Source: Pullulanibacillus sp. KACC 23026
GTDB taxonomy: Bacteria > Bacillota > Bacilli > Bacillales > Sporolactobacillaceae
Direction of reading: 5' to 3'
Assembly (NCBI RefSeq): GCF_029094525.1
Contig: NZ_CP119107.1
Location: 3,410,001 to 3,474,000, forward strand
Length of the DNA: 64,000 bases
Part shown: positions 11,295 through 49,643 of the stretch, piece by piece
How the letters are laid out: the number at the start of each line of letters is the position of its first letter
Numbering within the stretch: position 1 is the first letter of the stretch
Notes under the pieces: generated by a model
Database searches by the model: none
Told to the model about the DNA's origin: nothing
Seen by the model: the letters and a program-made list of their open reading frames with translations, nothing else
Program-made: the position numbers and the translations under genes

Positions 11295-11327
11295 CTCGCG
11301 AATCCAAGACTCATCGTCTAAACGTTT

Positions 11328-11420
11328 GCCACAATCCCTTCGCAGGCATGATCACTCACAGGTTCGATGGGTCGAAAGTATCACTTTCCTCTCAGCCTTT
11401 CAGATAAAGACTCCCCATGT
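11328..11420 (-). promoter_or_regulatory. TPP riboswitch aptamer (THI box)
   Basis: Read on the minus strand, this stretch contains the conserved THI-box blocks in order: ATGGGGAGTC, AGGCTGAGAGG, GACCCATCGAACCTG, and CATGCCTGCGAAGGGA. Together with the downstream terminator it should switch off thiT-thiN when thiamine diphosphate is plentiful. Confidence 0.95.
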
Positions 11421-11450
11421 GGTCCTCGTATTCAATTATTTGCCTTTTTC

Positions 11451-35619: not shown

Positions 35620-35660
35620 GACCCTCCTCTTATATCCCTATCTTGTGTCAGATACTTACG

Positions 35661-35790
35661 AAAAAACCTCTCAGTCAGCTGACTGAGAGGTTTATCTGGA
35701 TGGGCAGGGGTAGTCTTCGGCAAATTAGAAATTTCTAAAATTTCTTTTTGCCCATCCTAAGTACCTCCCTTTGTCAGCCTCACAGGACTG
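35661..35790 (-). promoter_or_regulatory. PyrR attenuator between pyrR and pyrB
   Basis: The minus strand carries a PyrR-binding loop, GTCCTGTGAGGCTGACAAAG (35770-35789), then an alternative pairing region with a 9-base GGATGGGCA/TGCCCATCC stem, then a terminator formed by a perfect 28-base palindrome (AACCTCTCAGTCAG and its complement, 35665-35692) with a T run. UMP-bound PyrR should favour termination. Confidence 0.88.
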
Positions 35791-35806
35791 CATTTAAAAG
35801 GGATCT

Positions 35807-42184: not shown

Positions 42185-42440
42185 CAAAAAACCTTCCGTC
42201 CAAAAAAGGGACGGAAGGTCCGTGGTACCACCCTAAATGCTTTTTTTGAAAAAAGCCACTCGGAATTCGTAACGTGAATGACCCGCTATTGTCTACTCAG
42301 GACGTTATACTTAGCCCTTTCGGAATAGAGCTCAAGGGTGATATTCAGCCGGTCTCTCTGATTGGGCTCTCACCATCCCCAATTCGCTGAAACTGTTCAA
42401 TCGACTTACTGTCCCTATCACAGCTAAATGACATTAATAT
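42185..42440 (-). promoter_or_regulatory. T-box riboswitch of ileS
   Basis: On the minus strand the leader contains the T-box AGGGTGGTACCACGG (42220-42234), the stem I features GGGGATGGTGAGAGCCC, and a specifier codon ATC (42340-42342) in the context TGAATATCACC, which reads isoleucine. A terminator (ACCTTCCGTCC with GGACGGAAGGT and a T run, 42185-42219) competes with the T-box antiterminator. Uncharged tRNA-Ile should allow read-through. Confidence 0.95.
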
Positions 42441-46964: not shown

Positions 46965-47744
46965 TTAACTTTTTATATTTCGATTCATCTCTTTAATAGC
47001 CGCTTTCTCAAGCCGAGAGACCTGGGCTTGGGAAATACCAATTTCCTCAGCTACTTCCATCTGGGTTTTCCCTTGAAAAAATCGCATTGAAAGGATGTTC
47101 TTTTCTCTTGCATTAAGTCGTGTCATCGCCTCTCGCAAGGCAATTTCCTCAATCCATTGAAGATCTTTTGTCTTATCATCACTAATTTGATCCATAACGA
47201 AAATGGGATCGCCGCCGTCATTATAGATAGGTTCAAACAGAGAAACGGGATCTTGAATCGCATCCAAAGCAAAAACAATATCCTCAGTCGGAACATCTAA
47301 TTGCTCAGCGATCTCAGCTGCCGTTGGTTCTCGAGAATTCTTTGAGATTAACTTTTCCTTGACCTGCAATGCCTTATAAGCGATATCTCGCAAGGAGCGA
47401 GAGACACGGATCGGATTGTTATCTCTTAAGTATCGGCGAATTTCACCAATTATCATTGGTACCGCATAAGTCGAAAATCTAACGTTTTGACCCAAATCAA
47501 AATTATCAATAGATTTCATAAGACCGATACATCCGACTTGGAACAAATCATCGACGTATTCGCCACGGTTGTTAAATCTCTGAATGACACTTAAGACAAG
47601 TCTTAAGTTGCCGTTGACCAATTTCTCACGTGCAAATTCATCCCCATTTTGCATTTGGACAAAGAGCTCTCTCATCTCTTCATTTTTTAAAACAGGGAGT
47701 GTTGCGGTGTCAACGCCACAAATTTCAACTTTGTTGCGTGCCAT
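46965..47744 (-). CDS. sigG: RNA polymerase sporulation sigma factor SigG
   Basis: Sigma-G drives late gene expression in the forespore after engulfment. The 259-residue product begins MARNKVEICGVDTATLPVLK and is nearly the same as B. subtilis SigG through region 2 (NLRLVLSVIQRFNNRGEYVD, IIGEIRRYLRDNNPIRVSRS) and the region 4 helix-turn-helix (EVAEEIGISQAQVSRLEKAA). The ATG at 47744 follows GGAGGG; the longer frame overlaps the leader. That ribosome binding site lies in the arm of a strong hairpin. It stands about 105 bases after sigE; I could not identify a convincing forespore promoter between them. Confidence 0.97.
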   Translation of the reverse strand: MARNKVEICGVDTATLPVLKNEEMRELFVQMQNGDEFAREKLVNGNLRLVLSVIQRFNNRGEYVDDLFQVGCIGLMKSIDNFDLGQNVRFSTYAVPMIIGEIRRYLRDNNPIRVSRSLRDIAYKALQVKEKLISKNSREPTAAEIAEQLDVPTEDIVFALDAIQDPVSLFEPIYNDGGDPIFVMDQISDDKTKDLQWIEEIALREAMTRLNAREKNILSMRFFQGKTQMEVAEEIGISQAQVSRLEKAAIKEMNRNIKS

Positions 47745-47750
47745 TTGATT

Positions 47751-47795
47751 CCCTCCAATCGGAGTGTTTACAAAGTAAAGTATCTCCGATGGAGG
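47751..47795 (-). promoter_or_regulatory. sigG leader hairpin covering the ribosome binding site
   Basis: On the minus strand CCTCCATCGGAG (47784-47795) pairs with CTCCGATTGGAGG (47752-47764), 12 base pairs with one bulged base and a 19-base loop. The 3' arm contains the Shine-Dalgarno GGAGGG of sigG, so folding would block translation start. Confidence 0.85.
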
Positions 47796-47849
47796 AAATT
47801 TTATGCATCTGAATATCTCACATGAAGCATCTGTCATTATTCTAAATCG

Positions 47850-48569
47850 TTAAACCATTTTATTAAATTCCTTCTTGAGTCGCTTTATAATTCGTTTCTC
47901 AAGTCTAGAAATATAGGATTGGGAAATGCCTAATTGATCCGCCACATCCTTCTGAGTCTTTTCTTTGCCGCCTGATAAGCCAAATCGCAATTCCATAATC
48001 TCCTTTTCCCTGTCATTCAATAAAAGAATCGCTTTTTTGAGCAGGCTTCGGTCGACTTTCTTCTCCATATCCCGTGTAATAATATCTTCATCCGTCCCCA
48101 AAACATCAGACAGCAATAATTCATTCCCATCCCAATCCACGTTAAGCGGTTCGTCAAAGGAGACTTCTGACTTTGTTTTATTATTTCTTCTTAAGTACAT
48201 GAGAATTTCATTTTCAATACACCTAGAAGCATAAGTAGCAAGCTTAATTTTTTTCTCCGGGTTAAAGGTGTTAACGGCTTTAATTAAACCAATTGTCCCA
48301 ATACTGATAAGGTCTTCGATATTGATTTTGGTATTCTCAAATTTTCTCGCGATATACACGACTAAACGAAGATTTCGTTCGATCAAAGAAGCACGGGCTG
48401 ATTCATCACCCTTCGTTAATTTAATCAACAACTCCGCTTCCTCATCTTTTGACAGAGGAGGGGGGAGCGCCTCGCTTCCACCAATATAATAAACGTCATC
48501 TGGTTTTACTTTAAATACCTGTAAGACCTTCGTATAGAGTTTCAAAAAAAATAGACGTATCTGTCTCAT
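47850..48569 (-). CDS. sigE: RNA polymerase sporulation sigma factor SigE (pro-form)
   Basis: Sigma-E is the first mother-cell sigma factor, made as an inactive pro-protein and cut by SpoIIGA at the septum. The 239-residue product keeps the hydrophobic pro-sequence [20 protein letters not shown] and the cleavage neighbourhood [13 protein letters not shown], then region 2 ([20 protein letters not shown]) and the region 4 motif [33 protein letters not shown] precedes the ATG at 48569. The activating protease gene spoIIGA lies upstream with a 168-base gap. Confidence 0.97.
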
Positions 48570-48737: not shown

Positions 48738-49643
48738 TTAAGCAGCTGTTCCGAGTTGAACCATATCCGGATGCAAGATACAGTTAAAGTCATTTTCCAA
48801 AGAGAGTTGATGATCTGTCAATGCGACTATCACCTTTTTACACTTTAGATGCCCTTTTGAGGACCTGAGATCCACATAATCAGGTTTCAGAGCGAGTACC
48901 GTTCGATGTTCACCGCTCACTCCTCTATAAGGAATGACCGTTAATCGATTCACCCAATCAGCAGGCAGTTTGGTGTCTGTTAGCACCTTCATGGGATCGT
49001 CCTGCAAATTAAGCTGAGGGAGATACTTTGCACAAACACTTTGGCTGACGAACATTACTGGAGATTGGCTGATCGGATGACGTAATTGGTTACCTGTATC
49101 CACTATGCCGACTGCTTCTATAATCGTTTTACCAATTTTCACTCTTACCTCAATGCGTTCCTCTGCCCGCCACTTTCGTATAACAACATGTTCCAAGCGT
49201 TTTTTTGAGAACCACCACAGGACCGGAAATCCAACTAGAATGAAGACCCAGCTCAGCGGATCCCCGTATTCAAAGGTACTTAGCTGAATACCTTTAACAT
49301 AGAATGATTGAGACTGAAGAAAATAATGAAGCGCAAAAAGACCGCCTCCAACCATAAAAGTGACGAAATAAAACATCCCAAAGGCCTGCAAGAAAAGCGC
49401 GGGTCGGTGATACCCAAAGACGATCAAAACAATGATTGCTGAATACACGAGTTTACCTATCGGGTTGTAAGCAATCACACCAAGAGGAGTAAAAAGCAAA
49501 ATGACAATTAAAGAAGCAAAGAAGCCGCCTAAGAAGACGCGCCACTTTCGAACAGGACGCTTTAGAGCAACCGAAGTTAATAAGATCAACATCGTATCGA
49601 TGAATAAGTTCATCAGCCAGACGACATCGAGATAGACCTTCAT
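48738..49643 (-). CDS. spoIIGA: sigma-E processing aspartic peptidase SpoIIGA
   Basis: SpoIIGA is a membrane protease of the sporulation septum that matures pro-sigma-E when signalled by SpoIIR. The 301-residue protein has five N-terminal membrane segments (about 5-150) and a C-terminal aspartic protease domain with the active-site motif AVGIVDTGNQLRHPIS near residue 183. The ATG at 49643 is chosen because the next upstream start (49670) lies inside the predicted promoter. Confidence 0.95.
   Translation of the reverse strand: MKVYLDVVWLMNLFIDTMLILLTSVALKRPVRKWRVFLGGFFASLIVILLFTPLGVIAYNPIGKLVYSAIIVLIVFGYHRPALFLQAFGMFYFVTFMVGGGLFALHYFLQSQSFYVKGIQLSTFEYGDPLSWVFILVGFPVLWWFSKKRLEHVVIRKWRAEERIEVRVKIGKTIIEAVGIVDTGNQLRHPISQSPVMFVSQSVCAKYLPQLNLQDDPMKVLTDTKLPADWVNRLTVIPYRGVSGEHRTVLALKPDYVDLRSSKGHLKCKKVIVALTDHQLSLENDFNCILHPDMVQLGTAA

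Follow-up and report, generated by a model that had tools for sequence, protein, structure and literature searches.

The locus described here lies on the minus strand of the window, the whole 64,000-nt stretch of Pullulanibacillus sp. KACC 23026 DNA that was analysed, and all window coordinates below refer to this strand. The sigG coding sequence (46965..47744) was assigned from its open reading frame and the 93% identity of its product to SigG of Pullulanibacillus pueri, the nearest named SigG. Upstream and in the same orientation are two open reading frames which, based on gene order and sequence, we take to be sigE (47850..48569) and spoIIGA (48738..49640). Their start codons were chosen by us, and the resulting gene order is spoIIGA, sigE, sigG. 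In the 105-nt gap between sigE and sigG (47745..47849), a terminator scan of the minus strand found no terminator-like site. Applied at the gathering score, Rfam gave three matches in the window, none of them near sigG: a T-box leader (42204-42430), a PyrR binding site (35658-35805) and a TPP riboswitch (11317-11427).

The ribosome-binding site of sigG, GGAGGG (47751..47756), is located 6 nt upstream of the ATG. In the fold of 47811-47730, minimum free energy (MFE) and centroid structures both place it in a stem of 16 bp with one bulged base (47758). The 5' arm (47784..47799) represents the anti-Shine-Dalgarno arm, and the 3' arm (47748..47764, paired through 47764-47759 and 47757-47748) contains the entire ribosome-binding site, every base of which is paired. 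A sequence-only reading of this DNA had already described a stem with one bulge at this place in front of sigG, with the whole GGAGGG in its 3' arm; gene, stem and bulge are indeed found there, and only the length of 12 bp has to be revised, as it covers merely the core of the 16-bp helix.

The fold reaches -26.4 kcal/mol compared to a mean of -11.8 kcal/mol (sd 3.0) for 200 dinucleotide shuffles, only one of which equals it (z -4.88). Extending the folded sequence to 201 nt leaves this stem in both the MFE and the centroid structure (z -2.75; 2/200 shuffles equal). Freeing the 7-nt sigG site would cost 16.2 kcal/mol, the highest value among the 52 window genes (mean 4.1, sd 3.0) that a simple ORF script had selected; the runner-up stands at 10.3 kcal/mol. 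These values are in line with the earlier proposal that the stem hides the sigG ribosome-binding site. The stem is absent from the 10 pairs of an ungapped inverted-repeat search, which is expected because the bulge interrupts it.

Promoter overlap and a putative read-through lock

The 5' arm coincides with a putative promoter. It fits the sigma-F/sigma-G consensus, reads GCATA-N14-GGAGATACT and spans the 5' arm of the stem. Motif score and conservation point to GCATA at 47802..47806 as the -35 element, followed by a 14-nt spacer AAATTTCCTCCATC (47788..47801) bearing the anti-Shine-Dalgarno stretch and by the -10 element GGAGATACT (47779..47787), whose GGAG can pair, once transcribed by read-through, with the CTCC of the leader. 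In consequence, the 5' arm is made up of promoter spacer and the first four bases of the -10 element. Across the 4.8-Mb genome, a looser promoter pattern has 5 occurrences and the reversed control pattern 12. Since the control is commoner, rarity of the pattern alone is no proof, and the case for this putative sigG promoter rests on its place and its conservation. The consensus is given in legend form in Mearls 2018 (PMC5942855), and the numbering used there, placed on the Bacillus mojavensis leader L068, suggests a transcription start 8 nt beyond the -10 element, corresponding to position 47771 in the window.

As spacer and -10 element lie upstream of this probable start, messages initiated at the promoter should be unable to form the long stem, and it would be confined to read-through RNA arriving from spoIIGA-sigE. 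In the fold, the Shine-Dalgarno bases pair with bases upstream of the presumed start with a mean probability of 0.93, and the freeing cost of 16.2 kcal/mol in read-through RNA compares with 5.2 kcal/mol in promoter-started RNA. For the latter, a small alternative hairpin of 4 bp, CUCC-GAUU-GGAG (47753..47764; -5.3 kcal/mol), is predicted, a structure that is within chance (z -0.46; 56/200 shuffles equal).

We consider it likely that the stem acts as a read-through lock on sigG translation. This reading draws on the sequence, the fold, the promoter overlap, the conservation and the energetic advantage of cognate arms; the start site, read-through at this locus and the block of translation are inferred. 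A polymerase starting upstream of spoIIGA and crossing sigE into sigG would produce an RNA with both arms, in which the transcribed promoter spacer would serve as anti-Shine-Dalgarno arm and bury the sigG ribosome-binding site, so that sigma-G would appear neither ahead of the forespore stage nor in any other cell. Once the forespore exists, sigma-F and subsequently sigma-G would initiate at the very promoter whose spacer and -10 element encode the 5' arm. The resulting message would start downstream of this arm, escape the lock and be translated, at most dampened by the small CUCC/GGAG hairpin. A developmental sigma factor is harmful if produced in the wrong cell. The promoter would double as the source of an arm silencing stray messages, without an extra gene. 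Reporters carrying the sigG promoter alone would miss this read-through layer.

In gene, place and layout, the window stem corresponds to the large read-through hairpin described for B. subtilis. According to Mearls 2018 (PMC5942855), a hairpin of 20+ bp in front of B. subtilis sigG (spoIIIG) has been suggested to keep RNA that reads through from spoIIG untranslated and cannot form in promoter-started RNA; Masuda 1988, as its predictor, and Sun 1991 are cited there. In addition, a further article states that early sigG read-through RNA of B. subtilis goes untranslated (PMC2530871). Both hairpins share the gene, the position after spoIIGA-sigE, a long stem over the ribosome-binding site and the exclusion from promoter-started RNA, which in the window follows from the sequence and the presumed start. 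They differ in genus and letters as well as in length (16 bp here vs. the reported "20+"), and for the window species the block of translation is a prediction. Mearls 2018 explicitly distinguishes the large hairpin from a separate, small one of 5 bp downstream of the start, in which nucleotides +10 to +15 pair with the ribosome-binding site (+19 to +23) and which lowers translation 2-4-fold (PMC5942855). The sequence-only reading had likened the stem to a translation-limiting leader hairpin of B. subtilis, and thereby merged two structures, as that hairpin is the 5-bp one. A leader CUCC pairs with the ribosome-binding site in the small hairpin and may do so in the chance-level 4-bp version of the window leader, whereas the long stem needs sequence upstream of the start (5' arm 47784-47799 vs. 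47771). Within the limited literature collection searched, we found no published account of the conservation of the large sigG hairpin.

A comparable layout is known from the T4 gene e and I-TevI locks, in which the 5' arm is part of a late promoter, so that the lock is restricted to early RNA reading through that promoter (PMC3014915, PMC2988022). These are phage genes served by a phage late sigma factor, and we draw an analogy of layout and claim no homology. For gene e, repression of about 100-fold was measured according to these articles, whereas the sigG lock is predicted from sequence and fold.

Conservation and co-evolution of the two arms

To define the comparative sample, 284 loci were reduced to 280 sigG leaders by dropping L213 (wrong region), L002 (the genome's own sigF copy) and L253 and L260 (poor matches). 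A strong promoter within 140 nt was present in 262 of them; the other 18, 17 of which have a good match further upstream, were omitted from the energy counts. Without repeats, 242 distinct leaders remain, the window among them, which split into 201 from Bacilli and 41 from other classes, with the names Bacilli and Clostridia being inferred for some genomes. For the other classes, the sample includes 20 leaders fetched from a longer list of further matches, and for the Bacilli it takes in a subset of the matches of one search.

In 218 of the 262 leaders, most of the pairing of the ribosome-binding site is with bases preceding the inferred start, and the median freeing cost is 12.0 kcal/mol in read-through RNA, 4.2 kcal/mol in promoter-started RNA and 6.6 kcal/mol with a shuffled spacer. 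Leaders were called locked if more than half of the pairing lies upstream of the start, the cost is at least 3 kcal/mol above that of promoter-started RNA and at most 1/20 shuffles are equal. By these criteria, set after the data had been seen, 158/201 distinct Bacilli leaders are locked and 43 are not; at less than 70% identity it is 54/70, and in the other classes 6/41, leaving 35 unlocked. Of the 80 named loci, scoring covered 77, and 58 qualified as locked. The suggestion of the sequence-only reading that the feature may be conserved in structure is borne out by this shared layout in 158/201 Bacilli leaders, and together with the cognate-arm advantage described below it turns a one-species prediction into one that is testable across spore formers.

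Within the window's own family, all ten leaders fetched from genera other than g6 are locked. Among the 12 leaders of genus g6, one is locked, eight are unlocked and three were unscored; this genus has lost most of the lock. In L031, L032, L202-L208 (g6), L263 and L265, the sigG promoter and the ribosome-binding site are separated by a longer leader; the spacer stretch TTTCCCTCA is retained in L263 and L265 and mostly lost in g6. In Paenibacillus leaders such as L106, a stem CCAAGGAG/CTCCTTGG spans only part of the ribosome-binding site, and the freeing cost of 6.4 vs. 5.0 kcal/mol in L106 indicates a weaker or different version. An association of the lock with the 14-nt promoter spacing was considered and is not supported, as 139/179 Bacilli leaders with 14 nt and 19/21 with 15 nt are locked, and the locked leaders of other classes all have 15 nt (6/6). 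Two SigG-like matches each (E 1e-90 or better) were seen in genomes G200, G204, G205, G250, G251, G288 and G289.

Because the register in which the arms pair apparently shifts from one species to another, energy-based tests were used for the co-evolution of the arms. After removing each arm's general stickiness, cognate arms of 70 dissimilar Bacilli leaders pair better than swapped arms by an excess of -4.42 kcal/mol (z -12.7; 0/5000 permutations). The reversed-arm control of equal composition, itself slightly below zero, gives -0.68 kcal/mol (z -2.5; 35/5000). For the 41 leaders of other classes, the values are -2.00 kcal/mol (z -5.0) for cognate and -0.16 kcal/mol (z -0.4) for reversed arms. 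The cognate arm is seldom the single best: it ranks in the top tenth in 27/70 Bacilli leaders, and for 107 cluster representatives of all classes its median rank is the top 21%, with 29/107 in the top twentieth. Column-wise covariation is weak. RNAalifold yields no consensus structure for 74 MAFFT-aligned Bacilli leaders. In a fixed register, whose anchor is present in 148/201 Bacilli leaders, the first position outside the -10 element pairs in 39/76 cases vs. 30.9 expected (44/5000 permutations as high), the second in 32 vs. 27.2 (non-significant) and the third in 31 vs. 24.9 (141/5000). Columns can reveal little because the ribosome-binding core is invariant and the register slips. Arm covariation, whose absence the sequence-only reading had named as refuting, gives a mixed picture, being strong if judged by swapped-arm energies and weak if judged by alignment columns.

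These data also bear on other explanations of the stem. The sequence-only reading had assigned it a role in the forespore, where a stem within the sigG message would slow sigma-G synthesis and time the late switch. A buried ribosome-binding site would fit this, as would the 2-4-fold effect of the small leader hairpin in B. subtilis (PMC5942855). However, the 5' arm lies in spacer and -10 element, upstream of the probable start at 47771, and would be excluded from promoter-started messages, which retain just the 4-bp hairpin with its chance-level stability. We regard forespore timing by the stem as unlikely, although it could stand if an unseen promoter further upstream were active in the forespore. 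Very unlikely is an inverted repeat acting at the DNA level, for example as a dimeric regulator site at the promoter, with the RNA stem as a by-product. The repeat does overlap the promoter, and energy tests alone cannot separate selection on DNA from selection on RNA, but the distance from the -10 element to the ribosome-binding site varies from 17 to 88 nt in locked Bacilli leaders, which is odd for a rigid dimer site, and the 3' arm tracks the ribosome-binding site. Furthermore, mismatches in cognate arms are more often G.U than A.C (57 vs. 10), an excess that is only modest (p 0.04) because swapped arms already give 2.8 to 1.

Even a little less credit is due to the idea that the pairing is a side effect of pyrimidine-rich spacers complementing purine-rich ribosome-binding sites. 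Composition does contribute, as shuffled spacers raise the median cost to 6.6 kcal/mol from the 4.2 kcal/mol obtained without the upstream part, and 34.9% of shuffled Bacilli spacers attain seven ungapped pairs. Real spacers, in contrast, reach a median of 12.0 kcal/mol and seven pairs in 148/201 leaders, and the clear advantage of cognate over swapped arms argues against mere composition. An intrinsic terminator or attenuator would suit the position of the stem between sigE and sigG, but no T run follows it on the minus strand and the terminator scan is empty at this place on that strand, which makes this explanation next to negligible.

Other lineages and terminator-like sites between sigE and sigG

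The layout recurs beyond the Bacilli. In one clostridial order (families f92 and f154), 22 genomes were searched and 19 gave a match. In all 19 leaders, a stretch of the spacer complements the ribosome-binding site, using letters that differ from the Bacilli ones, for example ACTTCCCCC opposite GGGGGAAGT and CTCCTCCT opposite AGGAGGAG; three of the leaders were scored by the lock criteria, and 16 were judged by sequence and fold. RNAalifold gives a 7-pair helix here, in which a single pair shows a double change. Covariation scores 0.142 vs. 0.113 with shuffled letters (23/500 as high), and the number of doubly changed pairs is at chance level (386/500 shuffles). In class f63, a third version of the stem is found in 5/5 leaders, four of which also have a terminator-like site.

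The latter finding contradicts a strict rule of either lock or terminator, which was rejected. In other classes with a placed sigE, terminator-like sites occur in 15/26 unlocked vs. 1/5 locked leaders. The new f92/f154 leaders have none (0/15), which brings the comparison to a Fisher p of 0.0002, with the reservation that these 15 belong to a single lineage and that their locked status was assigned by eye. The gap between sigE and sigG in other classes is shorter in locked than in unlocked leaders (p 0.018). A terminator should make a lock less needed, and the terminator-like site in 17/156 locked Bacilli leaders with a placed sigE was therefore counted against the lock.

Tentatively, these patterns could mean that in a large part of Bacillota the sigG promoter carries two codes at once. 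Its spacer would be maintained as a complement of the ribosome-binding site, and the GGAG of the -10 element would copy this site, giving a single leader CUCC two possible partners. Such a layout may have been retained, or have arisen anew from different letters, in Bacilli, in the f92/f154 order and perhaps in f63, and a terminator or a longer gap might often substitute in clostridia lacking it. If true, silence of sigma-G before the forespore would be required throughout the phylum and achieved in different ways. As a separate observation, in the leaders of Neobacillus drentensis (L050) and a Bacillus MAG (L053) the -35 element of the sigG promoter, GCATATTTTT, also supplies a terminator-like hairpin with its 3' arm and T run.
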